From assembly GCF_000422705.1 (NCBI RefSeq), contig NZ_AUGO01000003.1, positions 310,001 through 374,000 on the forward strand: a stretch of 64,000 nucleotides of DNA, read 5' to 3'. The notes below the pieces were generated by a model. That model saw only the letters and a program-made list of their open reading frames with translations. It was not told the DNA's origin and did no database searches. The position numbers were made by a program, and so were the translations under genes. Of the stretch, positions 2,245 to 17,546 are shown one piece after another; the first letter of the stretch is position 1, and every line of letters begins with the position of its first letter. The stretch is from Flavobacterium soli DSM 19725 (lineage in GTDB: Bacteria; Bacteroidota; Bacteroidia; Flavobacteriales; Flavobacteriaceae).

Positions 2245-2586
2245 GTGGCTACAAAAAATCCAGATAACGACAATTTTTTCGAAAGAGTTTATACTATCGC
2301 GAGGCAAATTCCTTATGGAAGAGTGACATCTTATGGAGCCATTGCCAAATGTTTAGGAACCGCCCGTTCAGCCAGAATGGTAGGTTGGGCCATGAATGCT
2401 TCGCATAATCTTGATGATGTTCCTGCTCATCGAGTGGTAAATAGAAAAGGATTATTAACTGGAAAACATCATTTTGATGGAACAAATTTAATGCAACAGC
2501 TTCTGGAAAGTGAAGGTGTGAAAATTGTAGACAATCAGATTGTGAATTTGGAGAAATACTTTTGGGAACCCGAAATGCCTCAATAA
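2245..2586 (+). CDS. Alkyltransferase-like protein (MGMT/Ogt fold, no active-site Cys)
   Basis: This 113-residue protein is the C-terminal DNA-binding half of O6-alkylguanine-DNA alkyltransferase. It has the Arg-finger region RSARMVGWAMN (41-51) and the active-site loop VPAHRVVN (59-66). In true MGMT the loop reads PCHR; here the Cys is Ala (PAHR), so it cannot accept alkyl groups. Such ATL proteins (E. coli ATL has Trp) bind O6-alkylguanine and hand the lesion to nucleotide excision repair; that role is inferred. The start is GTG at 2245; the ATG four bases upstream is out of frame and soon stops. It converges with the histidine kinase gene: the two stop codons abut at 2586/2587. Confidence 0.85.
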   Translation: MATKNPDNDNFFERVYTIARQIPYGRVTSYGAIAKCLGTARSARMVGWAMNASHNLDDVPAHRVVNRKGLLTGKHHFDGTNLMQQLLESEGVKIVDNQIVNLEKYFWEPEMPQ

Positions 2587-3906
2587 CTACCCCATCAAAC
2601 AAATCATAAATTTAGTTCGCTCCTCCTCTATCTGATAATTTAGATAACCTCCGTGGGCTTCGATAATATTTTTTGATAAAGTCAAACCGATTCCTGCTCC
2701 ATCTTTTCTGGTAGTAAAAAAGGGTAAGAAAATCTTGTCTTCTATTTCCTTTTCGATGCCGTTTCCTGAATCTGAAATGATGATAAAAATACGGTTACTT
2801 TTTATTTCAGTAGAAATTTCGATGTGTTTTTCCGCTTTTCCTTCCAAAGCATACATACTGTTGGTTAGCAGATTGATCAGAACTTGTTCCATTTGCAGTT
2901 TATCGACAGAAAGCCAGCGATTGAAATTTATCGTGTTATGAATCGCTATATTTTCCTTTTTCAAAAGCGGATTCATAATCTGCAGAACACCTTCAATCAA
3001 TTGATTGAGTTCTGTTTTCTCCTTGTTTGGTGTTGGTAGCATTGCCAATTTTCTATAACTCTCCACGAAATTCTGCAAATGATCGCTTCGGTAAATCATC
3101 GTCGAAACACTTTGCTTGATGTCGTCTAAATCTTCTTTTGAGAGCGATTCCTGTTGCATCAAATCGTTCAGATTTTGCGTCAAGGAACGGATTGGCGTGA
3201 TGGAATTCATCAACTCATGGGAGATGACTTTCATCAGATTAATCCAAGCTTCTTTTTCTTTTTTCTCAATTACTTTTTGGATAGAATCCAATAAGATGAT
3301 ATAATATTCTTGGTTGAATGTAGTGGTTGACGAAGCCTGAAGAATAAAAGTTTCACTTTCTTTCTTGTCAATCTTGATTTGTAAAGAGGTTTTTATTTCT
3401 TCGAAATTTCGTTCTTCTAAAATATTGCAAAGCGATGGAAGATGACTTTTCAGATACTGCCATTTCGAAACTTTTGGCACGAGAAAATGTTTGGAGAAAT
3501 AATCGTTTATCAGGAAAATGTTCCAGTCGTTTTCGTCTTTTTGTAGAATCAGAACACCAGTTTCGATGTTGTTTAAAATCGAGCGATAGACCAAATCTTT
3601 TGAAACTTGATCGTTCTGATTGCTTTTTAAATGATCGTAAAGCTTGAAGAGGTTTTTGTAATTCTCAAAGGATTTATGTTTAGAAAAATCAGCTGAAAAA
3701 TCATTGTTCAGAATCGCACTGATGGTTTTATCATAAAATAAAAAGGTGTTTTTTACGAATGAATACAATTCCATCAGCAACAAAAAAGAAATAAAGGCAC
3801 AGAAAAATCCTGAGAAAACCAATCCCTTTTGGAATAAGAAAACGCCAAATGCGATCCCGATTAAAATCAGAATCATACGGATGAAAATGGCATTGTAGTG
3901 TTTCAT
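2587..3906 (-). CDS. Sensor histidine kinase, partner of the NtrC-type regulator
   Basis: Taken from the ATG at 3906 (439 aa). Two transmembrane helices (about 8-25 and 30-50) precede a PAS-like region (about 100-210). A HisKA domain follows with H-box VISHELMNSITPIR (phospho-acceptor His230), then HATPase_c with N box NLLTNSMYAL (345-354), G1 DSGNGI and G2 GAGIGL. There is almost no periplasmic loop, so it probably senses a membrane or cytoplasmic cue. The frame is open to a TTG-like start at 3954, but the extra residues come from the repeat at 3941-3999; a second ATG at 3912 is a possible alternative. It follows the response regulator gene by 99 nt and presumably phosphorylates it. Confidence 0.88.
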   Translation of the reverse strand: MKHYNAIFIRMILILIGIAFGVFLFQKGLVFSGFFCAFISFLLLMELYSFVKNTFLFYDKTISAILNNDFSADFSKHKSFENYKNLFKLYDHLKSNQNDQVSKDLVYRSILNNIETGVLILQKDENDWNIFLINDYFSKHFLVPKVSKWQYLKSHLPSLCNILEERNFEEIKTSLQIKIDKKESETFILQASSTTTFNQEYYIILLDSIQKVIEKKEKEAWINLMKVISHELMNSITPIRSLTQNLNDLMQQESLSKEDLDDIKQSVSTMIYRSDHLQNFVESYRKLAMLPTPNKEKTELNQLIEGVLQIMNPLLKKENIAIHNTINFNRWLSVDKLQMEQVLINLLTNSMYALEGKAEKHIEISTEIKSNRIFIIISDSGNGIEKEIEDKIFLPFFTTRKDGAGIGLTLSKNIIEAHGGYLNYQIEEERTKFMICLMG

Positions 3907-3940
3907 AAACATTATTTTTTTAAACACAGTTAGTTTTTTC

Positions 3941-3999
3941 AACACAAATTTCACAGATTTATACAGATTGAATTTGTGTTAATTTGTGGAATTTGTGTT
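3941..3999. repeat. Inverted repeat of the AACACAAATTTCACA type
   Basis: AACACAAATTTCACA (3941-3955) pairs with 3985-3999 (14 of 15 positions). Closely related words (ACACAGATTTCACAGATTT, AACACAAATTTCACTG) recur at 7547-7622, so this is a dispersed intergenic repeat. It lies between the response regulator and its kinase and may attenuate read-through. Confidence 0.55.
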
Positions 4000-4005
4000 T
4001 GATTT

Positions 4006-5352
4006 TTAGCTCTTCAACTCAAACTTCTCCATTCGTCTGTACAAAGAAGCCCTGGAAAGCCCCAGTTCATCGGCGGATTTGCTGATGTTATAATTGTGTT
4101 TTTGCAAGACTTTCTCGATCGTTGCCTTTTCGATATCCATCAACTGCTTATCTTCATTAGTTTCTTCTACTATTGAAATGGTTTCCAAATCCAAATCAGA
4201 AATAGTAATCATATTGTTTTCGCACAAAATCACGGCACGCTCAATCCTGTTTTCCATTTCTCGGATGTTGCCGTTCCAAGAATGCTTTTGCATTTGCTCC
4301 AATGCTTTCTCATCGAAAACTATCTCGCTTCGTTCATATTTCTCTAGGATGTTTTCCAATAAAAACAAAGCCAACGAAACGATATCCGACTTCCGTTCTC
4401 GAAGTGGTGGCAAAAGAATCTCCATCGTATTGATGCGGTAAAACAAATCTTCCCTAAAATTTTTATGACTTACTTCATTTTTTAAATCAATGTTAGTTGC
4501 CGTAATAATCCTCACGTTCAGTTGACGGGATTTTGCTTCTCCCAATCGCGTTACCGATTTATTTTGAATGACTTGTAATAGTTTTGACTGCAAGTGCAAA
4601 GGTACATTCCCTATTTCATCCAAGAAAATCGTTCCGTTTTGAGCCAATTCGAATCTTCCCGGTGTGTCTGTTTTGGCATCCGTAAAAGCACCTTTGGCAT
4701 AACCAAAAAGTTCACTTTCGAAAATGTTATCATTCAAGGAACCTAGATCGACGTGGATAAAAGGCTGCTCTTTTCTGTTGGAATTTTGATGAATATAATG
4801 TGCCAGAACAAATTTTCCGGTTCCGTTTTCGCCTAATATTAAAACATTTGCATCGGTTTTGGCTACTTTTTCGGCTAATGAATAGGCTTTTTGAATGCTT
4901 GGAGAATTACCAATGAAAACGGTGTTCTTTTTTTCTTCGGTTGATGCTTTTTTCTTGACTTTTCGGGATTCATCAACAGCAGATTTTACGATGGAAACCA
5001 ATTTATCATTGTCCCACGGTTTTAAGATATAATCAAACGCTCCAAGTTTCAAACCTTCGACAGCTGTTTCTACCTTTCCGAAAGCGGTCATTAAAATCAC
5101 TACAGTTTTGGGCGAAAAGGTTTTTATTTCTTTTAACAGATAAATGCCTTCTCGTCCTTCTTCGAAGCCAATACGGTAATTCATGTCCAAAAGCACAACG
5201 TCGATTTCGTTTTCTGAGAGAAGACGGATTACTTTTTTAGGGTCAGTCAACGTGAAAATCGTCTCGAAATGTTTCTTCAAGACCATTTTGGAAGCAAAAA
5301 GAATATCTTCCTGATCGTCGATGACTAAAATTTGAGCATTGGTCTTTTTCAT
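4006..5352 (-). CDS. NtrC-family sigma-54-dependent response regulator
   Basis: 448 residues from the ATG at 5352 (a TTG 21 nt upstream lies inside a putative operator and is rejected). Domains in order: receiver (1-125) with acidic pocket IDDQED and phospho-acceptor Asp56; AAA+ sigma-54 activation domain (about 145-375) with Walker A GENGTGK (174-180), loop GAFTDA (221-226), Walker B TIFLDEIG (241-248) and NIREMENRIERAV; Fis-type helix-turn-helix (about 405-445, SKSADELGLSRASLYRRMEK). The canonical loop is GAFTGA; the Asp variant is the only departure I see. Divergent from the efflux operon, with two palindromes in its own leader, it probably activates that operon and may regulate itself. 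Confidence 0.92.
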   Translation of the reverse strand: MKKTNAQILVIDDQEDILFASKMVLKKHFETIFTLTDPKKVIRLLSENEIDVVLLDMNYRIGFEEGREGIYLLKEIKTFSPKTVVILMTAFGKVETAVEGLKLGAFDYILKPWDNDKLVSIVKSAVDESRKVKKKASTEEKKNTVFIGNSPSIQKAYSLAEKVAKTDANVLILGENGTGKFVLAHYIHQNSNRKEQPFIHVDLGSLNDNIFESELFGYAKGAFTDAKTDTPGRFELAQNGTIFLDEIGNVPLHLQSKLLQVIQNKSVTRLGEAKSRQLNVRIITATNIDLKNEVSHKNFREDLFYRINTMEILLPPLRERKSDIVSLALFLLENILEKYERSEIVFDEKALEQMQKHSWNGNIREMENRIERAVILCENNMITISDLDLETISIVEETNEDKQLMDIEKATIEKVLQKHNYNISKSADELGLSRASLYRRMEKFELKS

Positions 5353-5356
5353 GGTA

Positions 5357-5392
5357 TGTTCGTTTTCGGACAAAAGTGTTCATTATCGGACA
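5357..5392. promoter_or_regulatory. Paired 16-bp palindromes, candidate enhancer (UAS) for the NtrC-type regulator
   Basis: TGTTCGTTTTCGGACA (5357-5372) and TGTTCATTATCGGACA (5377-5392) are imperfect palindromes of the form TGTYCG-N4-CGGACA, spaced exactly 20 bp, close to two helical turns, as expected for dimers bound on one face. They lie 65-100 bp upstream of the -24-like GG at 5457, a normal distance for sigma-54 enhancers, and within 5 bp of the regulator's own start codon. The binding protein is inferred from position. Confidence 0.6.
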
Positions 5393-5455
5393 CTTGAGGA
5401 TTTTTATTAATTCTATAAATCGCTATTAATTAAGCTTTTATAAACTTTAAACTTT

Positions 5456-5470
5456 TGGCATAAAATTGCT
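5456..5470 (+). promoter_or_regulatory. Candidate sigma-54 (-24/-12) promoter of the efflux operon
   Basis: TTGGCATAAAATTGCT resembles TTGGCAC-N5-TTGC, with GG at 5457-5458 and GC at 5468-5469. The GG-to-GC distance is 11 rather than the usual 12, one base short, which weakens the call because sigma-54 spacing is strict. It sits 25 nt upstream of the adaptor gene, downstream of the paired palindromes. Confidence 0.4.
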
Positions 5471-5494
5471 ATATCATCTTACAAATAATTGAAA

Positions 5495-6733
5495 ATGGAT
5501 ACCATCGTTCCTCGTAAAAATAAAAAAAATAAATACCTTTTGATTGGTTTGCCGATTTTTTTATTGGCAAGTTATTTTGTCTATTCGGCTTTGACAAAAA
5601 AAAGAAGCCTTGATGTAAACCGAAATGAAATTACAATCAAAACGGTTGAGAATGCCTACTTCGAAGACTTTATTGTATTTCAGGCTAAGGTTGAACCTTT
5701 GAATTCTATGTTGCTGAATGTGATTGAAGGCGGTTCGATTCAAGAGATTTTTATTGAAAATGGTGATTTCGTTCAGAAAGGGCAACCGTTGGCAAGATTG
5801 TATAATCCGAATACGGAATTGGGTTATATGACACAGGAAACTTCGATGATTGAACAGATCAATAATTTGAACAAGGCGAAGCTGGATTTGAGAACTCAAG
5901 AGTTGAACTTGGCGAAAGACTTGGTGGCGATTGAGCACGACTATCTTGATGCCAAAAATTTATATGTTTTGAATGAGAAATTGTTCAAGGAAGAGATTTT
6001 ATCCAAAAATGAATGGGAAACTACGAAGGAAGCTTATCGGTTTCAGACTGAAAGAAAAAATATTATTCAGCAGAGTGTTCAAAAAGAAAAACAGGCGAAT
6101 GCCATCCTGATTTCGCAGATTAATCAATCGCAGGGGATTATGCAGAAAAGCTTGGAGATTTTGAGAAATAACAAAAAGAATTTCTTGGTAACGGCTCCAC
6201 TTGCGGGAAGGATTTCTTCGTTTGAACCGGTTTTGGGTAAAAACTATGTAGCAGGCGAAAGCATCGGGAAAATTGATGTGATGAAAGGCTATAAATTGAT
6301 GGCTGATGTGGATGAATTTTATCTGGAGAAAATTTCGGAAGGACAAAAAGGAACGGTCGATTATAAGGGAGAAACGATTCCTGTGGTGATTTCGAAAGTG
6401 ATTCCGGAGGTAAAAAACGGTCGGTTTTTAGTAGAATTGCAATTTGAATCTGCAAAAGAATTAGACCTTCGTCAAGGATTGAGTTTTGGCGTGAGACTGA
6501 TGCTTTCGGAAAAAACCAAAACAACTGTTCTTTCAAAAGGAAGTTTTTCTCAGGACACGGCAGGAAAATGGATCTTTGTAGTGAATGGTGACAAAGCCGA
6601 ACGTAGGGAAATTAAATTAGGTCGTGAAAATCCGTTGTATTATGAGGTTCTTGGCGGATTAAAGGCTGGAGAAAAAGTCGTTACTTCGGGGTATAAGGAT
6701 TATATGGAAATTCAGGTTTTAAATCTTAAATAA
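5495..6733 (+). CDS. HlyD/AcrA-type periplasmic adaptor (membrane-fusion protein)
   Basis: 412 residues from the ATG at 5495 (a TTG two codons upstream is less likely). A single membrane anchor (about 14-32) is followed by a biotinyl-lipoyl-like half (VIEGGSIQEIFIENGDFVQKG), a long alpha-helical hairpin (about 100-215, Gln/Lys/Glu-rich), the second lipoyl half (LVTAPLAGRIS) and beta-barrel and membrane-proximal domains ending in VLGGLKAGEKVVTSGY. Such adaptors couple an inner-membrane MacB/FtsX-type ABC transporter to a TolC channel. It is first in the rightward operon that continues to the TolC gene at 16287, and the first gene downstream of the putative enhancer and -24/-12 element. Confidence 0.9.
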   Translation: MDTIVPRKNKKNKYLLIGLPIFLLASYFVYSALTKKRSLDVNRNEITIKTVENAYFEDFIVFQAKVEPLNSMLLNVIEGGSIQEIFIENGDFVQKGQPLARLYNPNTELGYMTQETSMIEQINNLNKAKLDLRTQELNLAKDLVAIEHDYLDAKNLYVLNEKLFKEEILSKNEWETTKEAYRFQTERKNIIQQSVQKEKQANAILISQINQSQGIMQKSLEILRNNKKNFLVTAPLAGRISSFEPVLGKNYVAGESIGKIDVMKGYKLMADVDEFYLEKISEGQKGTVDYKGETIPVVISKVIPEVKNGRFLVELQFESAKELDLRQGLSFGVRLMLSEKTKTTVLSKGSFSQDTAGKWIFVVNGDKAERREIKLGRENPLYYEVLGGLKAGEKVVTSGYKDYMEIQVLNLK

Positions 6734-6758
6734 AAAATATAGTAAACTAATAAATGAT

Positions 6759-6822
6759 CAGTCCTAATCAAGCTGGAGTATCAATCATCAAGTCAAAAAG
6801 CAAACAGTTCTAATCAAGCTGG
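6759..6822 (+). repeat. Short direct repeat between adaptor and ATPase genes
   Basis: CAGTCCTAATCAAGCTGG (6759-6776) is repeated as CAGTTCTAATCAAGCTGG (6805-6822), 17 of 18 identical, 46 bp apart. No hairpin is obvious. It fills most of the 113-bp gap within the operon; function unknown. Confidence 0.5.
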
Positions 6823-6846
6823 CAAACAATTTAAAAAGGAAACATT

Positions 6847-7548
6847 ATGATTAAAATTCAGAATCTATCGAAAATCTTCAGAACTGAGGAAGTGGAAACA
6901 AAGGCCTTGAATGAGATTGCCTTGGAAGTGAAACAAGGTGAATTTATCACAATTATGGGTGCGTCAGGTTGCGGAAAATCGACCTTGCTGAATATAGTAG
7001 GACTTTTAGACAGTGCTTCGAGCGGAAGTTATAAGTTACTCGACCAAGAAATGCTGGGCTTGAGCGAATCGGAAAAATCTAAAATCAGGAAACAAAACAT
7101 TGGTTTTATCTTCCAGAACTTTAACCTCATCGATGAGCTTTCGGTGTATGACAATATTGAGTTGCCACTCATTTACAACAACGTTTCATCATCTGAAAGA
7201 AAGAAAAAAGTAGAGGCTATTGCAGAACGTTTGGCAATTTCGCACCGTTTGAAACATTTTCCGCAACAACTTTCGGGTGGACAACAGCAGAGGGTTGCCG
7301 TTGCGAGAGCATTAATCAACGATCCTAAAATTATCCTCGCGGATGAGCCAACTGGCAACTTGGACAGCAAGAATGGTAACGACGTGATGGAATTATTGAC
7401 GGATTTGCATGCCAATGGAGCCACAATCCTGATGGTAACACACTCGGATTATGATGCTTCGTTTTCGCAAAAAACCATTTTCATGAAAGACGGAATGGTG
7501 CTTTCGGAAAAAACCAATGGCAGGAATGTGGATGTGTTTGTTCAGTAA
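6847..7548 (+). CDS. ABC transporter ATP-binding protein, MacB/LolD type
   Basis: A 233-residue nucleotide-binding protein with all ABC motifs: Walker A GASGCGKST (38-46), Q-loop FIFQNFNLI (Gln90), signature LSGGQQQRVA (142-151), Walker B IILADEPTGNLD (162-173) and H-loop Thr-His199. The QNFNLI and EPTGNLDS context is characteristic of the MacB/LolD/FtsE subfamily, which powers mechanotransmission rather than transmembrane substrate passage. It is the only ATPase in the operon and must therefore serve one or both of the permeases at 7672-10104 and 12376-14796. Confidence 0.93.
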   Translation: MIKIQNLSKIFRTEEVETKALNEIALEVKQGEFITIMGASGCGKSTLLNIVGLLDSASSGSYKLLDQEMLGLSESEKSKIRKQNIGFIFQNFNLIDELSVYDNIELPLIYNNVSSSERKKKVEAIAERLAISHRLKHFPQQLSGGQQQRVAVARALINDPKIILADEPTGNLDSKNGNDVMELLTDLHANGATILMVTHSDYDASFSQKTIFMKDGMVLSEKTNGRNVDVFVQ

Positions 7549-7622
7549 ACACAGATTTCACAGATTTACACAGATCTAATTTGCCAAAAATCAACACAAA
7601 TTTCACTGATTCACACAAATTT
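7547..7622. repeat. ACACAAATTTCAC-type dispersed repeat
   Basis: Two related units, AACACAGATTTCACAGATTT (7547-7566) and AACACAAATTTCACTGATTC (7593-7612), share their core with the inverted repeat at 3941-3999. They occupy the gap between the ATPase and the first permease. Confidence 0.5.
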
Positions 7623-7671
7623 GGTACGTCTATAAATGTTTTAAACCTAATTTTCATCAATCAAAATAAAA

Positions 7672-10104
7672 ATGCTTAAAAACTGGTTCAACATATTCAT
7701 CTATCAGATAAAAAACAACAAGCTCTTCACGGCTCTCAACGTTTTGGGGTTGAGTTTGGGAATGGCGGGGGTGGGTTTTGCGATTCTGTATTGGAATGAC
7801 GAGCATTCGTATGACGCTTGGAATCCAGAGAAAGACAAGGTGTTTTTATCGATAACTTCTGTTGGCAATAACATCAAGTGGGCTTCGAATGTGGCAGGTT
7901 TTGAGCCTTACTTTAAAAAAGATTTTCCAGAACTTGAAGAATATTGCTATTTTGAAAACTGGTATGAAAAAGAAGTCCTCAAAACGTTGAACCGCAAAAC
8001 CATTGCTAATGTGAGTGCGGTTCAAGACAACTTCTTTTCCTTTTTTCCATTTGATTTCATAGAAGGAAATGCAAAGAATGCTGTTGCAGATGAAAGCAGT
8101 ATTGCCATTTCTGAAAGTACTGCAAAAGCTTTGTTTGGAGAGGGCGAGGCACTGAACCAAGAAGTCAGCTACAAGAAGAAAAAATATGTGGTTCGTGGTG
8201 TGTATCGCATTCCGGGAAAATCTTCAATGGCTCCCGATGTTGTGATGAACGATATGCAAAAACGATTGAAGACTGACCTGACCGAATGGGGAAATTTTAA
8301 TTATGGCTTGCTTTTAAAGGTTAAAAAACCCTCTGATACGGCTTCGGTAATTAAAAAAATGGAACACATCCTTTTTGAAAACCGCGATTTGAAATGGGCA
8401 AAGGCCGAGGGGATCACATTAGCGGAATGGCATAAAAAAGGTGGAAGACCAACTAAAATTGAATTACAACCCTTAACTGATGCCCGATTAAATTCAGATG
8501 TTGAAGGATATCCAGGAGGCAAGGGAAACTTGCAGTTCCTAAGGATTATGATGGGAATTTCGATTCTGATATTGATTTTATCAACGGTTAATTATATCAA
8601 TCTTGCGACTGCAAATGCCATCAAGAGGGCAAAAGAAGTAGGACTTCGAAAAATTCTTGGCGCTTCAAAAGCAAATATCGTTTGTCAGTTTTTATTAGAA
8701 ACCGCTCTGACTGCGATAATCGCCTTGTTAATTGGACTTGTAATCGTTGAACTTTCATTGCCTTATTACAATGACTTTTTAGGGAAAACCTTAAAAATCC
8801 ATACCCAGGAGTTCTATTTGCAATTGCTTATGATCTTGGCGGTTATCGTTGTCTTTGCAGGCATCTTTCCAGCACTTTATGTGGCTAATTTTGAAACCGT
8901 AAAAGTACTGAAAGGCAATTTTTCCAGAAGCAAAAACGGCATCTGGCTCAGAAACGGAATGCTTGTTTTTCAATTTGCCATTGCCTCGTTCTTTATGGTA
9001 GGCTCCTATATTGTTTATCAGCAGATTGACTATTTCAGCTCGAAAGACCTCGGCTTCAATGGCGACCAGATTGTGCAGGTGGAATACCGAAACACCTATG
9101 ACTATGAGGAAAAAGACTTTATCCAGAAAACGACCAATCGCTACAGCTTTATCAAACAAGCCCTTTCAAAGATTGAAGGCGTGAAGAGTGTTTCGGCGGG
9201 CTCTTTCTCGTTTGGAAAGACCGTTTCGGCTTCCTCCAGCTTTGACTACAACAACAAAGTTACCGTTCAAAGCAAAAATATGCTCATTGATTTTGGCATG
9301 CTTGACATGATAAACATAAAAATCAAGGAAGGAAGAGACATTTCGGCTGCATTTTCTGCAGACACCGCTACTTCTATTTTGCTAAATGAAACAGCCATAC
9401 GGATGATGAACGAGAAAAACCCAATTGGAAAAAAAGTCACTTGGAATAACAAGGAGCTTGAAATTATTGGTGTCGTAAAAGATTTTCACATCAATGGCCC
9501 ACAAGAAGATATTCCGCCAATGACTTTTTTCCATTATAAAACCAGCGACTGGATGATCCTAAATGCAGAATCAATCTATTTGAAGATTGAACCCGAAAAA
9601 ATGGAATCGGCCTTGGCAGAAATTGAAGCCTTTTGGGTTAAAAATGTAGAGGGAGATTTTCCGTTCACCTATGATTTTGTGGACAAGAATTTTTCCCGAT
9701 CCTATCAGAATTATGTCTATCAACGTAATTTGTTTTCACTGTTGAATTTGGTTGTCATCATTATTTCCCTTTTCGGATTATTCGCACTTGCCTCCTATTC
9801 CATCCAACGAAGAATGAAGGAAATTGCCATCAGAAAAACATTGGGAGCCGAAACGAAAACATTATTAAAAGAATTGTCAAAACAATATATCATCTTCTGT
9901 ATCATCGGATTTGTAATGGCTCTTTTTCCTGTGTATTTCCTGCTGGACAAATGGCTCGAAAATTTTGCTTACAGAATTGACATATCAGCAATTCCGTTCG
10001 TGATTGGGTTTGCAGCCTTGGTAATTCTGACCTTGATTGTGGTGCTTTCACGGGCTTATCAGGCGACAAGGATGGATGTTTTGAAGTATTTAAAATATGA
10101 ATAG
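7672..10104 (+). CDS. FtsX/MacB-like ABC permease, first paralogue
   Basis: An 810-residue double-FtsX permease of the Bacteroidota type. A first TM (about 19-40) and a MacB periplasmic core (about 45-280) precede the first FtsX domain (about 288-410, three helices, with the cytoplasmic motif KRAKEVGLRKILGASK). A TM near 425-445, a second periplasmic core (about 450-680) and a second FtsX domain (about 686-810, with RRMKEIAIRKTLGAETK) follow. The C-terminal tail YQATRMDVLKYLKYE is shared with the second permease. It has no nucleotide-binding domain, so it depends on the ATPase just upstream. The product is expected to move hydrophobic compounds or peptides from the periplasm to TolC; the substrate is not evident. 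Confidence 0.9.
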   Translation: MLKNWFNIFIYQIKNNKLFTALNVLGLSLGMAGVGFAILYWNDEHSYDAWNPEKDKVFLSITSVGNNIKWASNVAGFEPYFKKDFPELEEYCYFENWYEKEVLKTLNRKTIANVSAVQDNFFSFFPFDFIEGNAKNAVADESSIAISESTAKALFGEGEALNQEVSYKKKKYVVRGVYRIPGKSSMAPDVVMNDMQKRLKTDLTEWGNFNYGLLLKVKKPSDTASVIKKMEHILFENRDLKWAKAEGITLAEWHKKGGRPTKIELQPLTDARLNSDVEGYPGGKGNLQFLRIMMGISILILILSTVNYINLATANAIKRAKEVGLRKILGASKANIVCQFLLETALTAIIALLIGLVIVELSLPYYNDFLGKTLKIHTQEFYLQLLMILAVIVVFAGIFPALYVANFETVKVLKGNFSRSKNGIWLRNGMLVFQFAIASFFMVGSYIVYQQIDYFSSKDLGFNGDQIVQVEYRNTYDYEEKDFIQKTTNRYSFIKQALSKIEGVKSVSAGSFSFGKTVSASSSFDYNNKVTVQSKNMLIDFGMLDMINIKIKEGRDISAAFSADTATSILLNETAIRMMNEKNPIGKKVTWNNKELEIIGVVKDFHINGPQEDIPPMTFFHYKTSDWMILNAESIYLKIEPEKMESALAEIEAFWVKNVEGDFPFTYDFVDKNFSRSYQNYVYQRNLFSLLNLVVIIISLFGLFALASYSIQRRMKEIAIRKTLGAETKTLLKELSKQYIIFCIIGFVMALFPVYFLLDKWLENFAYRIDISAIPFVIGFAALVILTLIVVLSRAYQATRMDVLKYLKYE

Positions 10105-10129
10105 CCCCCTAACCCGCCACGGCGGGGAA
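10103..10129. repeat. GC-rich palindromic intergenic element
   Basis: AGCCCCCTAACCCGCC followed by ACGGCGGGGAAT. The arms CCCGCC (10113-10118) and GGCGGG (10121-10126) form a tight hairpin. Its GC content stands out in this AT-rich gap right after the first permease stop. It may be a short dispersed repeat. Confidence 0.45.
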
Positions 10130-10190
10130 TTGTTGGAACGGAATCACTTTATAAATAGAAATAAAAAATAATTAATAAAAAAATAAAATT

Positions 10191-10991
10191 ATGATACGAG
10201 TTATCTTCTTTACAACAGCAGTATTATTCAGTTTATTAACCAATGCACAGGTTTCAGAAAATCGAACGGTTGGCGAATTCTCGAAAATTAAAGTTTCAAA
10301 CGGAATCGAGTTGATTTACACCCAATCATCCACTCAAGAAGTAAAAGTTGAAACTGATGATAATGAGAAATTACAATACATCAAAACCGAAATCGAAGGT
10401 TCGACTTTACGAGTTTATCTGAATACCGAAAATGCTCCAAAACCTGAAACCAAAAAGAAACGCAAAAGAAAAAATTACAGCAACAGCTACAACAACATCA
10501 ATTTTGACGTCTTGAAAGTATATGTTAGTAATGCATTAGTTGAAGATTTTAGAGCGAGTTCTTCGGGTTCGATTTTCATCAAAAACAGCCTGAATGCAAA
10601 GAATATAGCCATTGATTGTTCGTCAAGCGGAAGTTTTGCCGGAACGATTAAATGTTCGAATGCTATGATAGAATCTTCGTCCAGTGGCGATGTAGATGCC
10701 AATATCACAGCCGATGCAATTGATGTGAAAGTCAGCAGTTCGGCAGATGTGGAATTGTCTGGAACAACCGAAAAAATAACCATAAAATCAAGCAGCTCGG
10801 CCGATTGCAAAGCGAAGAACTTAATCGCTAAAAATGCAGTTGTAGAATCCAGTAGTTCATCTGATGTTGATATCCATGCAACCGAAAAACTAGTGGCAAG
10901 TGCTTCTTCGAGTGCTTCGATTACTTTTTTTGGAAATCCAACTAGTGTTGAAAAAAGCGAAAGTTCCTCGGGTTCTGTATCTAAAAGATAA
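10191..10991 (+). CDS. Head GIN domain (DUF2807) protein, periplasmic or surface
   Basis: 266 residues with a signal peptide (MIRVIFFTTAVLFSLLTNAQ, cleavage after about 20). The rest matches the DUF2807 or head-GIN pattern: VGEFSKIKVSNGIELIYTQS, then a repetitive right-handed beta-helix rich in S-S-S/G and D-V steps (for example VSSSADVELSG, ESSSSGDVDA) spaced about 20-25 residues. A basic Lys/Arg/Asn-rich insert lies at about 84-104. The molecular function of DUF2807 is unknown; such proteins often sit beside two-component or efflux genes in Bacteroidota. Here it lies between the two permease paralogues in the efflux operon. Confidence 0.85.
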   Translation: MIRVIFFTTAVLFSLLTNAQVSENRTVGEFSKIKVSNGIELIYTQSSTQEVKVETDDNEKLQYIKTEIEGSTLRVYLNTENAPKPETKKKRKRKNYSNSYNNINFDVLKVYVSNALVEDFRASSSGSIFIKNSLNAKNIAIDCSSSGSFAGTIKCSNAMIESSSSGDVDANITADAIDVKVSSSADVELSGTTEKITIKSSSSADCKAKNLIAKNAVVESSSSSDVDIHATEKLVASASSSASITFFGNPTSVEKSESSSGSVSKR

Positions 10992-11018
10992 TTGTATTTT
11001 ACTTGAAACCCTATCATT

Positions 11019-12302
11019 ATGAAGAAAATATTTTTATTTCTTTTTTTAATTACATTTTTGACTCCATCAAGTGCTCAAAAAATCTGCTCGTCTGATATTA
11101 GTAATTTTTGGATAGCCTTTGATAGCCTCCAAAAGACCGACAAAAACAAAAGGGAAATTCTTAATGCTCTTTTTTTAAATAAAAAATCAGACGGATTAAA
11201 ATCATTTATGGAGATCAAAAATTTTGGAGAAGATGATTATTTATATGTTATGGAAAAGTATCCTCTGTTTTGGAACTCTATAAGAGCCAATACCATAGTA
11301 AACGATACTAAAATTGAGAAAATCAACAAAGCATTGAAAAAACTAAAAAAGCTATATCCTCATAATTTACAGGGAACAATTTACTTTACATTAGGTACCT
11401 TAAAATCAGGAGGAACTGCTACAAATGAAGATTTACTTTTGGGCCTAGAAAAAATAGTGGGAGATAAAAATACCATTGTTTCGGAATTTGAAAATAATGA
11501 ACTTCAAAAAATCTTTTCATATTCTAGTTCATCACAGTTAGAACAGGTTACTGTTCACGAAACGGTTCATCTTTTTCAGAAAGAAGGAGAAATCAATGTG
11601 TTAGCAAAAGCAATCAAAGAAGGTTCATGCGATTTTATTGCAGAATTAACTTTAAACAAAAAATTCACAGCACATTACATTAATTATGGAATAACGAATA
11701 ATGAAGCTATAATGTCTGCTTTTAAACAGGAAATGTTTAGTCAAAACTTTAGCAACTGGTTTTACAATTACCAAAACAGCAAACATCCAGATTTAGGATA
11801 TTATGTTGGCTATATCATTTCCAAAAAATACTATAAAAACGCAAGCCATAAAAAACAAGCCATAAAAGATATTATAGATTTAGATTTCAATGATGAAAAA
11901 GCCGTCCTACATTTTTTAGAAAAGTCAAAATATTTTAAAGAAAGCATAGATGTGGAACAAATAAAATCTACTTACAAAAGCAATCAACCTCAGATAATCC
12001 GCATCCAAGAATTTGAAAACGGTAGCGAAAATGTAAGTCCGGATATCAACAAAATTCAAATTGTATTTTCCAAACCAATGCAAGAGAATATTTCTATAAA
12101 TTTTTCAAAATTTGGGAAAGAACATTTTCCATTACAAAAAATTTTAGGTTTAAACGATACAAAAACAATCTTAACAATTGAAACTATAGCCCTAAAACCC
12201 GACACCGAATATGACTTTTATATCACTGATAGATCAACAAAATCAATAGATGGCTATCCATTTGGAGCTCAAGAATATAAAATTGCATTTAAAACAAAAT
12301 AA
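11019..12302 (+). CDS. Exported protein with HExxH metalloprotease-like motif and C-terminal Ig-like domain
   Basis: 427 residues with signal peptide MKKIFLFLFLITFLTPSSAQ. The middle contains TVHETVHLFQKEG, an HExxH zinc motif (His180, Glu181, His184), followed by EGSCDFIAEL (201-210) placed where gluzincins supply the third ligand; this resembles the DUF2268/GldB-like family of predicted Zn proteases. The last 95 residues (FSKPMQENISINF, LKPDTEYDFYITD) look like a bacterial Ig-like domain of the SbsA type. The gene looks more AT-rich than its neighbours. It lies 27 nt after the DUF2807 gene and 73 nt before the second permease. A protease acting on the transporter's cargo is possible but untested. 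Confidence 0.7.
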   Translation: MKKIFLFLFLITFLTPSSAQKICSSDISNFWIAFDSLQKTDKNKREILNALFLNKKSDGLKSFMEIKNFGEDDYLYVMEKYPLFWNSIRANTIVNDTKIEKINKALKKLKKLYPHNLQGTIYFTLGTLKSGGTATNEDLLLGLEKIVGDKNTIVSEFENNELQKIFSYSSSSQLEQVTVHETVHLFQKEGEINVLAKAIKEGSCDFIAELTLNKKFTAHYINYGITNNEAIMSAFKQEMFSQNFSNWFYNYQNSKHPDLGYYVGYIISKKYYKNASHKKQAIKDIIDLDFNDEKAVLHFLEKSKYFKESIDVEQIKSTYKSNQPQIIRIQEFENGSENVSPDINKIQIVFSKPMQENISINFSKFGKEHFPLQKILGLNDTKTILTIETIALKPDTEYDFYITDRSTKSIDGYPFGAQEYKIAFKTK

Positions 12303-12375
12303 ATAGAAGGTTTAGTTTACATCAAAAAAGTGCTATAAATCTAAAGTTAATTCATCATCAAAAAACGAACACATC

Positions 12376-14796
12376 ATGCTGAAAAATTGGTTTAAAATAT
12401 TTCTGTATCAGATAAAAAACAATAAATTATTTACCACTCTCAATATTTTAGGATTGAGTATGGGAATCGCCGGACTTGTTTTTGCCATCTTGTATTGGAA
12501 CGACGAGCATTCCTACAATGTTTGGAATCCGGAGAAAGAAAAAGTTTTTCAGGTACTAAATAATGTTAGCGAAGACACTTATTGGAACACCAATGTAGCT
12601 CCACTTGAGAATCATTTAAAAAACTTTCCAGAACTCGAAAGTCATTGTTTTTTAAACAATTGGTATTTTAATGAAATCCTAGAATATAACGGAAAAAAAA
12701 CATTACTCAACGGTATCTTGGATGCACAATCTACGTTTTTTTCCTATTTCCCATTCGAGTTTATTCAAGGTGATCCAATATCAGCGATAAAAGACAACAC
12801 GAGCATTGCACTCTCCGAAGCTACAGCCCAAAATCTCTTTGGAACAACTAAAGTTTTAGGCAAACAGCTTCACTATTCTGGACGAACAATGGTGGTTCGG
12901 GGAGTTTATAAAATTCCTGGCAAATCATCATTTGCACCTTTGGCCGTTACCAGCATCATTGATGGAAGAATTGCAGAAGAAAGTAAAAACGAAAACTGGG
13001 GAAATTTTAGTTTCGGATTGTTAGTAAAATTAAAAGACCCGACAAAAACCCAAGCTGTTATTGATAGAATTGAGGCTTTGTTTTATGAAAACAGCATTAA
13101 AAGATGGGCAAAAGAAGAAGGAATTTCGCCAGAAGAATACATCAAAAAAAATGGCAGAAATAAAGTAGTCCTTGAACCGCTTTCAACAGCACGATTGCAT
13201 TCTGTTACAAACAGTTACCCAGAAGGCCGAGGCAATTATCAATTCTTGATGATCATGATGGGATTATCAATTTTAATCCTCTTTCTCTCTATTGTCAACT
13301 ACATCAATCTTGCTACGGCAAATGCCATAAAAAGAGCCAAGGAAGTAGGAGTTCGAAAAATAATTGGTGCAACAAAAAAAAATATTGTTTGTCAATTTAT
13401 TTTTGAAACCGCACTCATCACTTGTTTTGCAATACTATTAGCTTTAGTAATTGTAGAGCTTTCTTTACCTTTTTACAATGATTTTCTAGGAAAACAATTA
13501 GTCATCGAGGGTAGTTTGTTTTTTATACAACTCCTGGCTATTTTTTGTTTGGTGATTCTAGTCGCCGGAATTTTACCTGCCATTTATGTCGCAAATTTTG
13601 AAACGCTAAACGTTTTGAAAGGCAATTTCGGACGAAGCAAAAGTGGCGTCTGGCTCCGAAACGGAATGTTGGTGCTGCAATTTGCAATCGCTTCGTTCTT
13701 TATCATTGGTTCCTACATCGTGCATCAACAAGTAAAATTCATGAGTACAAAGGAAATTGGTTTTCAAGGCGATCAGGTATTAGACATCTATTATAGAAGA
13801 CCCGATCATGATGATCCAAAAAAAATCTTCAACCGCTATCACACACTAAAACAAGAGCTATTAAAAATTAAGGGGGTCGAAGACGTTTCTACAGGTGCTT
13901 TTTCTTTTGGCAACAGTTCCAATTCTTCATCAAGTTTCACTTATAACGGTCTCAGCATTCAAGGTCAAAACATGGCGGTCGATTTTGAACTTCTTGACAT
14001 GATGAAAATAAAAATGCTTGAAGGTCGAAATTTCAATCCTCAAATTGCATCCGATACGATTAACTCTATGATGATAAACGAAACGGCTTTAAAGCAAATG
14101 AACGAAAAAAATCCAATTGGAAAGGTAGTAGATTGGAACGACGAAAAACTAAAAATTATCGGTGTCGTAAAAGATTTTCATCTTTATGGACCACAGGCCG
14201 AAATTCCTCCAATGGCATTTTTCCATTTCAAAACCATCGATTGGATGTCCTATAATCTCAACCGAATCTACATTAAAGTCCAAGCCGAAAATATGCAAGA
14301 AACGGTAACTGCTATCGAAAAATTTTGGACCACAAAAGTTAATACCGATTATCCGTTTGAATATGATTTTGTAGATAAAAATTATGCCCGAACCTATCAA
14401 GCCTACGTCAAACAACGAAACCTGTTTAGTTTATTGAATATAGTCGTAATTCTAATCGCCGTTTTCGGATTGTTCGCCCTCGCCTCCTACTCGATCGAAA
14501 GACGAATGAAGGAAATCGCCATCAGAAAAACCCTTGGTGCCGAAACCAAAACATTACTCAAGGAACTTTCAAGACAGTACATCGTGTTTTGTGTAATTGG
14601 CTTCTTGATTGCTCTATTTCCAGTTTATTATTTACTTGGAAAATGGCTGGAGAATTTTGCTTTCCGAATCGAAATCTCCATCCTCCCATTCCTTATTGGA
14701 TTTGTAGTTTTACTGATTCTCACCTTGCTTATCGTATTGTCAAAAGCCTATCAAGCCACCAGAATCGACGTATTGAACTATTTAAAATATGAATAA
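12376..14796 (+). CDS. FtsX/MacB-like ABC permease, second paralogue
   Basis: 806 residues, clearly homologous to the permease at 7672-10104 over its full length: both start MLKNWF(N/K)IF(I/L)YQIKNNKLFT and end YQATR(M/I)DVL(K/N)YLKYE. The layout is the same: TM, periplasmic core, FtsX (KRAKEVGVRKIIGATK), TM, periplasmic core, FtsX (RRMKEIAIRKTLGAETK). The periplasmic cores diverge more than the membrane parts. It has no ATPase of its own. The pair may form a heterodimer with one shared ATPase, or two homodimers with different cargo. Tandem duplication with two genes between the copies is the simplest origin. Confidence 0.9.
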   Translation: MLKNWFKIFLYQIKNNKLFTTLNILGLSMGIAGLVFAILYWNDEHSYNVWNPEKEKVFQVLNNVSEDTYWNTNVAPLENHLKNFPELESHCFLNNWYFNEILEYNGKKTLLNGILDAQSTFFSYFPFEFIQGDPISAIKDNTSIALSEATAQNLFGTTKVLGKQLHYSGRTMVVRGVYKIPGKSSFAPLAVTSIIDGRIAEESKNENWGNFSFGLLVKLKDPTKTQAVIDRIEALFYENSIKRWAKEEGISPEEYIKKNGRNKVVLEPLSTARLHSVTNSYPEGRGNYQFLMIMMGLSILILFLSIVNYINLATANAIKRAKEVGVRKIIGATKKNIVCQFIFETALITCFAILLALVIVELSLPFYNDFLGKQLVIEGSLFFIQLLAIFCLVILVAGILPAIYVANFETLNVLKGNFGRSKSGVWLRNGMLVLQFAIASFFIIGSYIVHQQVKFMSTKEIGFQGDQVLDIYYRRPDHDDPKKIFNRYHTLKQELLKIKGVEDVSTGAFSFGNSSNSSSSFTYNGLSIQGQNMAVDFELLDMMKIKMLEGRNFNPQIASDTINSMMINETALKQMNEKNPIGKVVDWNDEKLKIIGVVKDFHLYGPQAEIPPMAFFHFKTIDWMSYNLNRIYIKVQAENMQETVTAIEKFWTTKVNTDYPFEYDFVDKNYARTYQAYVKQRNLFSLLNIVVILIAVFGLFALASYSIERRMKEIAIRKTLGAETKTLLKELSRQYIVFCVIGFLIALFPVYYLLGKWLENFAFRIEISILPFLIGFVVLLILTLLIVLSKAYQATRIDVLNYLKYE

Positions 14797-14840
14797 TTTA
14801 AGGAGCATCACATAAGGCTTTTTCATCCCGAAGCTTCGGG

Positions 14841-14950
14841 ACATGTTCCTGCTGGATGCACTATCTTTTGTTCTGTCCCGACGCTTCGGGGCCAGAACAA
14901 AAGGATAGTTGCAACCATCAGGGCTAGATAAAATCTTTAGGCTTCTATTA
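14841..14950 (-). repeat. Dispersed palindromic repeat, copy C
   Basis: On the minus strand: AGAAGCCTAAAGATTTTA, then TAGCCCTGATGGTTGC and a hairpin with arms CTATCCTTTTGTTCTG (14893-14908) and CAGAACAAAAGATAG (14861-14875) enclosing a GCGTCGGG palindrome, ending CCAGCAGGAACATGTC. A CCCGAAGCTTCGGG palindrome flanks it at 14828-14841. It shares its outer flank with copy A and has an unrelated stem. It separates the second permease from the TolC gene. Confidence 0.65.
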
Positions 14951-14988
14951 AACCTTAATCCCAGATGATTCAAAAAAATATAATTCCA

Positions 14989-16287
14989 ATGAAAAAATTA
15001 ATTTTGAGTTTGCTCTTAATTACTTCGAGCATTTTTGTGAATGGCCAGGAAAATTCTTGGTCATTGCAAAAGTGTGTTGATGTAGCCATGCAAAACAGTA
15101 TTGATATAAAAGTAAAGCAACTCGAAGTCACAAAGGCTCAAAAACGCTACACACATCCTCTTTTGGAACTTTTCCCAAGCGTGAGTTTAAACGGAAATCA
15201 CAGTTATAATTTTGGCTCGACCATCGACCCAACAACCAACAACAGGGTAAGCTCTGACATTCAGTGGGACAATTTTTTCCTGAATGCCAATATGAATATT
15301 CTCGACTTTAATAATTTGGCTACAGCCAAAAAAAATAAAATTGAAATCGAAATGGCAAAAGCCGATAAATCAGTCATTGAATACGACTACAAATTGCAAC
15401 TATTGGAAAAATACTTCGATGCTTTGTTCTCACAGGAGTTGGTTAAAATCCAAAAAGAGCAATTAAAAAATAGCACCTTCAACCTTAACAGAATTGAAAA
15501 AGAAGTCGAAATTGGCAACAAGCCCCAAAGCGATTTATACGACATTCAATTGAGTTTCTCTCAAGACGAAAAACGCCTTATGGAAGCCGAACAATTGTTT
15601 GAAACCCAAAAATTGCAACTTTTTCAATTGATGAATTTTAAAGTGGAAAACCTAGAGGATATCGTTCTGGAAACTTATTTAGGAAATGAAACCGAGATTG
15701 TTTCCTCCGAAATCAATAATCCAAAAATTCAATTTGCCGAATTGGCTTATAAAAGTTCCAAGACGGATATTTCGATTCAACGTTCTGTTAACCGTCCTAC
15801 ACTTTCAGCCTTTTATCAATTATCAACTTTTTATTCTTCTCCAATCAATCAGCCAAATGCTAATGTTGTCGGTTTTCGAACACAATTGGACGATAATAAA
15901 AACCATCAGGTAGGCTTGCAAATGAGCATCCCGATTTTTACAGGATTCAGAAACAACAAACAAATCAAGGCATCGAAGATAGAATCTGAAAGGACAAAAC
16001 TGCTTTCGGAACAAGAAAAAATTAAAATCGAACAACAAATCGAACTCGAAAACATGCGTAAAAAGCAATATCTGAAGCTGTCCGACAACTTAAAAAACAC
16101 CTTGAAATATGCCCAAGAATCGTTCAAAACCACACAGTCAAAATTCACTAGCGGAAAAATTGATGCCGTTGGGTATAATTCGGTCAAAAACCAATTGCTT
16201 TCTTCCGAGTATGATTTTCTGAAAAATAATTTATTACTGCAATATGCTTCTTTGAAAATAAATTTAATTCAAAAAAACGAATTATAA
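14989..16287 (+). CDS. TolC-family outer-membrane channel protein
   Basis: 432 residues from the ATG at 14989, chosen because the signal peptide MKKLILSLLLITSSIFVNGQ begins there; an upstream ATG at 14965 adds eight unlikely residues. The mature protein has two outer-membrane efflux repeats of long amphipathic helices (WSLQKCVDVAMQNSIDIKVKQL; LEKYFDALFSQELVKIQKEQLK; QVGLQMSIPIFTGFRNNKQIKAS; KFTSGKIDAVGYNSVKNQLL). TolC trimers form the outer-membrane duct of tripartite pumps. Last in the efflux operon and separated from the permease by repeat copy C, it may also have its own transcript. Confidence 0.9.
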   Translation: MKKLILSLLLITSSIFVNGQENSWSLQKCVDVAMQNSIDIKVKQLEVTKAQKRYTHPLLELFPSVSLNGNHSYNFGSTIDPTTNNRVSSDIQWDNFFLNANMNILDFNNLATAKKNKIEIEMAKADKSVIEYDYKLQLLEKYFDALFSQELVKIQKEQLKNSTFNLNRIEKEVEIGNKPQSDLYDIQLSFSQDEKRLMEAEQLFETQKLQLFQLMNFKVENLEDIVLETYLGNETEIVSSEINNPKIQFAELAYKSSKTDISIQRSVNRPTLSAFYQLSTFYSSPINQPNANVVGFRTQLDDNKNHQVGLQMSIPIFTGFRNNKQIKASKIESERTKLLSEQEKIKIEQQIELENMRKKQYLKLSDNLKNTLKYAQESFKTTQSKFTSGKIDAVGYNSVKNQLLSSEYDFLKNNLLLQYASLKINLIQKNEL

Positions 16288-16348
16288 ACTGACAATACCA
16301 CCATAAACAAAACCAATCCTTTATCTTTATTTTAAGAACATTTCGTAT

Positions 16349-16356
16349 TATCTTTG
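16349..16356 (+). promoter_or_regulatory. -7 promoter element (TAnnTTTG) for the Mrp gene
   Basis: TATCTTTG is an exact match to the Bacteroidota -7 consensus, about 60 nt upstream of the ATG at 16416. No clear TTG -33 element is found 19-21 nt further upstream. Confidence 0.45.
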
Positions 16357-16415
16357 CAATCTAAATTCAATCTTAATAAAAAAGCAATTGAAAAGAATTG
16401 CACCTCATATATCCA

Positions 16416-17546
16416 ATGAAATTAGATAGAAAAGAAATACTTAAAGCTTTAGAAACGTTATCAATAGCAGGAGAAGGAAAAAATATGGTCGAAAGCGGAG
16501 CCGTTACAAATGTCGTGACATTTGGCGAAGAAGCAATCGTAGATTTAACGATTTCGACACCTGCAATGCACATCAAAAAACGCGCTGAAGAAGACATCCG
16601 AAAATTAATTCAGGAAAAGTTCAATCCAGACGCGAAAGTAAAAGTCAACATCAAAGTTGAAACTCCAGAAAAACCTACCGAAATAAAAGGAAAAGCAATT
16701 CCTGGAATCAAGAATATAATTGCCGTAGCTTCAGGAAAAGGTGGCGTAGGAAAATCTACCACTACCGCAAATCTTGCTGTTACATTGGCAAAAATGGGGT
16801 TCAATGTTGGTGTTTTGGATGCTGATATTTATGGACCTTCCATGCCAATTATGTTTGATGTAGAATCTGAAAAACCAATTTCAGTTAATGTTGACGGAAA
16901 GTCAAAAATGAAGCCAATTGAAAGTTATGAAGTAAAAATACTTTCAATCGGGTTTTTCACAGCACCAAGCCAAGCCGTAATCTGGAGAGGACCAATGGCC
17001 TCCAAAGCCCTGAACCAAATGATTTTTGATGCAGATTGGGGTGAACTTGACTTTATGCTAATCGATTTGCCTCCAGGAACTGGGGATATTCATCTTTCCA
17101 TCGTTCAATCTTTGCCAATTACAGGAGCTGTTATCGTAAGTACGCCACAAGCCGTTGCCTTAGCCGATGCTAAAAAAGGAGTTGCGATGTTCCAATCGGA
17201 CAGTATCAACGTTCCAGTTTTAGGAATCATCGAAAATATGGCTTATTTCACTCCAGAAGAATTACCAGAAAATAAATATTATATCTTCGGAAAAGAAGGT
17301 GCAAAAAATCTTGCAGCAGATTTAAATGTTCCCTTTTTAGGAGAAGTCCCAATCGTTCAATCCATCCGTGAAGCAGGAGATTATGGTCGTCCGGCTGCTT
17401 TGCAAACCGCATCACCTTTGGAAAAAGTTTACGAAGAAATCGCTAGAAATGTAGTGCAGGAAACCGTAAACAGAAACGAAAATTTACCACCTTCCGAAGC
17501 AGTGAAGATTACTACAATGGCAGGTTGTTCGGCAGTAAAGAAATAA
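16416..17546 (+). CDS. Mrp/NBP35-type Fe-S cluster carrier ATPase
   Basis: 376 residues from the ATG at 16416; the TTG six codons earlier is rejected. An N-terminal MIP18/DUF59 domain (about 1-80) is joined to a ParA-like deviant Walker P-loop ATPase with SGKGGVGKST (106-115), DADIYGPS and DLPPGTGDIHL. This family carries and transfers Fe-S clusters in the cytoplasm. The paired Cys (CxxC) of E. coli Mrp/ApbC is missing: the matching segment reads FTPEELPENKYYIFGKEG, with no Cys. A lone Cys lies near the C-terminus (MAGCSAVKK). The NifU-like gene follows closely, then two genes for ferredoxin redox partners, consistent with Fe-S maturation. Confidence 0.92.
   Translation: MKLDRKEILKALETLSIAGEGKNMVESGAVTNVVTFGEEAIVDLTISTPAMHIKKRAEEDIRKLIQEKFNPDAKVKVNIKVETPEKPTEIKGKAIPGIKNIIAVASGKGGVGKSTTTANLAVTLAKMGFNVGVLDADIYGPSMPIMFDVESEKPISVNVDGKSKMKPIESYEVKILSIGFFTAPSQAVIWRGPMASKALNQMIFDADWGELDFMLIDLPPGTGDIHLSIVQSLPITGAVIVSTPQAVALADAKKGVAMFQSDSINVPVLGIIENMAYFTPEELPENKYYIFGKEGAKNLAADLNVPFLGEVPIVQSIREAGDYGRPAALQTASPLEKVYEEIARNVVQETVNRNENLPPSEAVKITTMAGCSAVKK

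Follow-up and report, generated by a model that had tools for sequence, protein, structure and literature searches.

Organization of the Locus

The window (the whole stretch of DNA analyzed, 64,000 nt from Flavobacterium soli DSM 19725) contains two genes transcribed in the same direction, coding for a sensor histidine kinase and a response regulator, and a divergent row of pump genes (Table 1). The regulator shows the domain set of the NtrC family in Pfam, and the kinase is its likely partner; a divergent regulator and a divergent kinase were each matched in 77 of 80 related loci (the best 80 of 320 relatives). The start of the regulator gene was best set at ATG 5352, the TTG at 5373 of the ORF list adjoining palindrome I, and its orthologues begin MKKT or MRKK (one begins MKKI). 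The 142-nt gap between this ATG on the minus strand and the adaptor ATG (5495) on the plus strand holds two palindromes and a TGGCAT element.

Table 1. Features of the regulator-pump locus, with positions in the window.
Feature	Position	Strand	Remarks
Sensor histidine kinase	2587..3909	-	HATPase_c above cut-off, HisKA below it
Response regulator	4006..5352	-	Receiver, sigma-54 AAA+, Fis-type HTH (Pfam); GAFTDA
Palindrome I, TGTTCGTTTTCGGACA	5357..5372	.	Upstream one of two proposed regulator dimer sites
Palindrome II, TGTTCATTATCGGACA	5377..5392	.	Proposed second dimer site, about 2 helical turns from I
Sigma-54-type promoter element, TGGCAT-N4-TTGCT	5456..5470	+	Intact -24 half; spacing to the -12 half one base below standard
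Predicted transcription start	5482	+	24 nt past the second G of GG (5458)
Periplasmic adaptor, first pump gene	5495..6733	+	HlyD_3; best NCBIfam model DarC, below cut-off
Detached ABC ATPase	6847..7548	+	ABC_tran; best NCBIfam model DarD, below cut-off
Duplicated FtsX/MacB_PCD permease 1	7672..10104	+	NCBIfam: ADOP best, DarB second, both below cut-off
DUF2807 protein within the row	10191..10991	+	Match in 19/80 loci (best 80 of 320)
427-aa protein, HETVH motif	11019..12302	+	Motif by eye
Duplicated FtsX/MacB_PCD permease 2	12376..14796	+	NCBIfam ADOP, then DarB, below cut-off
TolC-type outer membrane efflux protein	14965..16287	+	OEP; TolC model below cut-off

Among NCBIfam models, the adaptor clears the cut-off of the general RND_mfp subfamily, the only one it passes. 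The pump resembles the darobactin exporter DarBCD and the ADOP permeases in that its adaptor and ATPase are best matched by DarC and DarD, and its permeases by ADOP; it differs in that all the window proteins fall below the curated cut-offs of these models (DarC 179 vs 450, DarD 282.5 vs 375, and DarB 65.2 and 81.4 vs 700 bits). MacB is an ATPase fused to a permease. The locus shares with MacAB-TolC the adaptor, the FtsX/MacB-type permease and the TolC parts, but its ATPase is encoded by a separate ORF and its permeases are duplicated. Because of this, and since the DarB/C/D and ADOP models are nearer, the term MacB-type given to the pump in an earlier note on this DNA turned out to be a loose label. 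The DUF2807 protein and the protein with the HETVH motif are interposed between the two permease genes (10191-12302). The HETVH protein, perhaps a metallopeptidase, showed no NCBIfam match and was found in 0/80 related loci (best 80 of 320) within the sequence covered.

A Conserved Palindrome Pair With Fixed Geometry

The two 16-bp palindromes described in the earlier note were confirmed, with a start-to-start distance of 20 bp. Palindrome I matches TGTYCG-N4-CGGACA without mismatches and lies upstream of the regulator gene, its start 4 nt from the ATG, and palindrome II deviates from the pattern at one position. Single palindromes with up to two mismatches were mildly enriched in the window (10 vs a shuffle mean of 3.4), and with up to one mismatch the genome gave 20 strand-hits vs 19 for a reversed control, although the window locus is the only perfect match genome-wide. 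Lone palindromes are therefore not rare, and one site by itself proves nothing. The pair was examined in a comparison set of 81 loci, made up of the window and 80 adaptor-bearing loci, the best 80 of 320 relatives (hereafter the best-80-of-320 set); nearly all of the 80 are labelled Flavobacterium or Flavobacteriaceae, and many are close relatives. The best pair score was 22-24 of 24 in all 81 loci, and the maximum reached in 16,200 first-order Markov shuffles was 20. The conservation at orthologous loci proposed as a check in the earlier note was thus found. When 199 genomes of the genus were searched with the exact pair pattern, 20 contained it, at one place each, vs one genome for a control pattern; this pattern under-detects, since the genomes G006 and G008 carry the module (at L002 and L007) with small deviations and lie outside the 20. 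A regulator was located within 60 nt for 17 of these 20 places by the parser, in every case with the loop sequence GAFTDA and with TGGYAY 61-63 bp past the end of the pair. The other three places (L221, L223 and L226) were unparsed; the genome of L221 also supplied L239, where a regulator lies 87 nt away.

Within the best-80-of-320 set, the two palindromes are spaced by 20 bp in 5 loci, 21 bp in 46 and 22 bp in 30, and in 80/81 a TGGYAY block begins 76-80 bp beyond the first base of palindrome II; the sole exception, L129, reads CGGCAC. On the other side, the regulator start could be parsed in 75 loci (L062, L090, L098, L099 and L101 were unparsed), and the distance from palindrome I to the regulator ATG is 2-4 nt in 35 of them, 11-12 nt in 27 and 25-204 nt in 13. 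In those 13 loci the pump-side distance is still 76-80 bp. Since the distance to the pump side is constant and that to the regulator ATG is variable, the sites appear to be anchored to the pump promoter, which is the strongest argument for an enhancer. In five further loci of the genus (L232-L236), where the closest pump gene codes for the ATPase rather than the adaptor, the pair is retained with a score of 23, and TGGCAY lies at 77 bp. Conservation thus strongly supported the proposal of the earlier note that the gap between an efflux operon and an NtrC-type regulator holds an enhancer pair and a -24-type promoter. That note had also suggested autoregulation; palindrome I lies within the regulator leader in the window, so binding there may also affect the expression of the regulator itself. 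Position is the one ground on which this is plausible, and it loosens in the 13 loci with the longer distances.

Among 58 more distant loci, 21 showed a pair score of at least 20, vs 1 of 2,320 shuffles. The other 37 gave no pair reaching 20, so that the operator is unrecognisable there at these settings. Across families, the enhancer-promoter distances fall at 58-59, 68-70 and 76-81 bp, with one at 85. Helical phasing of these distances is suggestive, as a post hoc comparison in which 3.2% of random sets were as good (n = 9 hand-entered lineages).

Each palindrome can fold as a hairpin (z about -2; 11 of 200 shuffles equally good). Palindrome II was also considered as an intrinsic terminator and rejected, terminator-like sites numbering 8 vs 11.4 in shuffles; the fixed geometry likewise disfavours a terminator.

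The Putative Sigma-54-Type Promoter Element

The element TTGGCATAAAATTGCT sits at 5455-5470; its TGG starts 99 bp downstream of the first base of palindrome I and 79 bp downstream of that of palindrome II. Taking the second G as -24, the palindrome centres would lie at about -117 (I) and -97 (II), and the predicted start would leave a 13-nt leader. In standard sigma-54 promoters, 10 nt separate the GG from the GC, vs 9 nt in the window (N4). Throughout the best-80-of-320 set, TTG at the standard spacing (N5) was found in 0/81 loci and TTG one base short (N4) in 31/81; a T-N-N-C is readable at the standard spacing in 43/81, three of them overlapping the 31, and 10/81 show neither. The 43 loci suggest that some members of the set may retain a degenerate -12 at the standard register. 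Past the -24 block, the T at position 12 is the only invariant base (74/74 loci; 49/49 non-redundant loci), the invariance of TGG and A5 in the 74-locus set being built into the search pattern. Of the -24/-12 element announced in the earlier note, the -24 half was upheld, and the -12 half was not conserved at the standard spacing. Either one lineage shifted the -12 half by a single base and it has decayed in others, or it may be hardly used.

The standard register is kept elsewhere. In elements hand-picked from the 21 pair-bearing distant loci, N5-TTG was read in 14/16 and N4-TTG in 2/16. When the palindromes were ignored, 56 loci (L245-L300) gave N5-TTG in 18, N4-TTG in 3, N6-TTG in 2 and none in 25, with 8 unparsed. 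Upstream of groES, the sequence TGGCAY-ARTTT-CTGA, which is in the standard register, was present in 30/30 Flavobacterium loci read, of 46 genomes searched, with the TGG starting 52-66 nt upstream of the groES ATG (L301-L330). This is a candidate for an unusually clean sigma-54 promoter, and groES of B. thetaiotaomicron is sigma-54-dependent (PMC12316311). It is because groES and the distant relatives keep the standard register that the non-standard -12 at the pump locus is notable.

Conservation extends to a further block, 17-32 bp before the TGG at 5456 (T at -32 in 43/49, A at -24 in 46/49 and T at -18 in 48/49 non-redundant loci); a DNA-bending protein site and the promoter of the regulator are candidates for it. 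On the regulator side, no convincing conserved promoter element was seen in the profile of the 49 non-redundant loci.

The GAFTDA Loop of the Regulator

The earlier note had called the regulator NtrC-type. This held for its domains and failed for the sigma-54 contact loop, which reads GAFTDA, not GAFTGA, in 11/11 aligned orthologues, the window included. GAFTDA was present in 77/80 loci (best 80 of 320 relatives), the loop not being found in the other three. In a wider set of 71 loci, of which 13 belong to the genus, the first such protein read by the parser at each locus had GAFTDA in 58, GSFTDA in 6, GAYTDA in 1, GAFTGA in 5 and GSFTGA in 1. The gene neighbourhood persists among remote relatives: a pump gene was matched at 56 of these 71 loci within the stretch covered, and a kinase at 69, a match that may be general. 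Other regulators of the window's genome carry GAFTSA (L031), GAFTGA (L032, L034) or GSFTGA (L033/L167). GAFTDA is among the loop variants judged compatible with activation, and it occurs in DVU2106 of Desulfovibrio vulgaris, for which target operons are given (PMC4641369). For VfmH of Dickeya, which also has GAFTDA, a pull-down detected no RpoN, and the cause was left open (PMC10714721).

RpoN and Genome-Wide Scans

The window's genome contains one RpoN gene. RpoN was found in 41/41 genomes of the genus, this one included, and it carries ARRT[IV]AKYRE in 30/30 loci examined. Upstream of rpoN, no common TGGCAY element was seen in these 30 loci, and hence no autoregulated rpoN promoter. In the genome of the window (L041), the sequence some 80 nt before rpoN contains an inverted repeat, its arms being TGGCACA and TGTGCCA; by eye, these arms are absent from the other 29 rpoN loci, where other inverted repeats occur (for instance in L175 and L185).

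The genome scan proposed in the earlier note, for the palindrome near -24/-12 elements, gave no further clear targets. Besides the window locus, L046 was the only place with TGGCAY within 170 bp downstream of a palindrome with up to one mismatch. This, together with the 20 strand-hits vs 19 in the control, led us to reject a multi-target regulon, and the palindromic site looks private to the pump locus. A scan of the genome for TGGCAY-N3..7-TTGCW gave 62 matches, distributed from N3 to N7 as 16, 10, 8, 20 and 8 (hand count), so that N5 was in no excess over the N3-N7 range.

Two side observations were made. Where a kdp row lies beside a GAFTGA regulator, at least one TTTTGGCAY block was present in 7/10 loci (two of the other three were unparsed), and in 5/10 two such blocks stand 68 bp apart between the NtrC-type regulator and kdp (L166:6050-6150, L203, L206, L207 and L208); no clear -12 accompanied the kdp blocks in the 10 loci. 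In addition, a contig labelled Candidatus Gracilibacteria (JABWCI010000017.1, L062) bears a Flavobacterium-like adaptor (81% identity) with the pair and the promoter element, and is probably mis-binned.

Discussion

We read the two palindromes as a putative enhancer pair for the divergent regulator, and the TGGCAT element as the sigma-54-type promoter of the pump row, with a probability of about three in four. Most likely, this pair and promoter put a Flavobacterium pump for efflux or export under the positive control of a two-component sensor. The sensor kinase would phosphorylate the NtrC-family regulator, whose dimers would occupy both palindromes on the same face of the DNA and assemble the AAA+ ring; the regulator would then loop to sigma-54 RNA polymerase poised at TGGCAT-N4-TTGCT, and this contact would switch on the row from adaptor and ATPase to permeases and TolC, possibly transcribed as a single operon. 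Against the involvement of sigma-54 stand the lack of conservation of the -12 GC and the replacement of GAFTGA by GAFTDA. A more tentative reading, which we hold to be less probable than its opposite, is that Flavobacterium has fixed a sigma-54 promoter whose halves are one base too close, or whose -12 is nearly dispensed with, and which is read by the phylum-wide GAFTDA regulators, the groES promoter staying standard.

Two other explanations were weighed against the enhancer reading. The palindromes might serve the regulator gene, as the operator of an autorepressor or as hairpins in its leader, with the pump transcribed from a sigma-A promoter and TGGCAT present by coincidence. The start of palindrome I only 4 nt from the regulator ATG, the hairpin that each palindrome can form and the non-standard spacing from TGGCAT to TTGC would all fit, but the geometry argues the other way: the distance to TGGYAY is fixed in 80 of the 81 loci (best 80 of 320), whereas that to the regulator ATG ranges over 2-204 nt in 75 loci. 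A sigma-A promoter was sought as well. The Bacteroidota-type pattern is TTG-N17..23-TANNTTTG; towards the pump it occurred in 12/81 loci vs 41% of shuffles, and towards the regulator in 14/81 vs 29% (both in the best-80-of-320 set), while sigma-70-type matches over 2400-17500 numbered 45 vs a shuffle mean of 44.9. We therefore consider this explanation unlikely. The pattern is not enriched towards the regulator either, so that no promoter for the regulator itself was located.

More improbable still is that the GAFTDA family has lost its contact with sigma-54 and activates another form of the polymerase, the -24-like block being a relic or the site of another protein. The prevalence of GAFTDA (77/80 of the best 80 of 320 relatives), the degenerate -12 half and the precedent of VfmH (PMC10714721) lend it some weight, but it sits poorly with the TGGCAY-N5-TTG kept by distant relatives in 14 of the 16 hand-picked elements, and with the judgement that GAFTDA is activation-compatible, as in DVU2106 with its target operons (PMC4641369).

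The enhancer-promoter arrangement resembles known sigma-54 promoters with paired NtrC-type enhancers in its TGGCAY block, its AAA+ response regulator and its two palindromes 20-22 bp apart, and differs from them in that TTG is missing at the standard spacing in 81/81 loci (window and best 80 of 320). DVU2106 is alike in being a sigma-54-type regulator with a GAFTDA loop and target operons, but it is single-component and its operons are labelled cell division (PMC4641369). Control of COG0577 antimicrobial-peptide permeases by sigma-54 was predicted in silico in 2025, with enrichment in Bacteroidia, gamma-Proteobacteria and Opitutia, using a class-wide matrix of consensus TGGCAC-N5-7-TTGCT (PMC12316311). 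The sigma factor and the permease group are common to that prediction and to our locus, but the sections of it consulted name neither this operator, the regulator, the short spacing nor, for COG0577, Flavobacteriia. The earlier note had seen sigma-54 control of the pump as a defined regulatory unit in Flavobacteriia; for this permease group, a published computational study has already predicted such control in Bacteroidia (PMC12316311). No description of an operator or promoter like the present one was found in the literature searched (open-licence PMC text), within which the novelty lies in the operator and its constant geometry, in the regulator family with GAFTDA and in a -12 region that is conserved yet non-standard.

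As far as the literature searched goes, sigma-54 regulation in Flavobacterium has been little explored. The locus is a self-contained unit of sensor, regulator, operator pair, promoter and pump, the geometry of which is fixed among the best 80 of 320 relatives. To our knowledge, the textbook view is that sigma-54 tolerates no change in the -24/-12 spacing; if true, the short spacing would be a natural exception to it and a test of how rigid sigma-54 promoter recognition is. If it is real, promoter scans that use N5-7 will tend to miss such promoters. For Flavobacterium, the locus points to a likely control point of an efflux or peptide-export pump.
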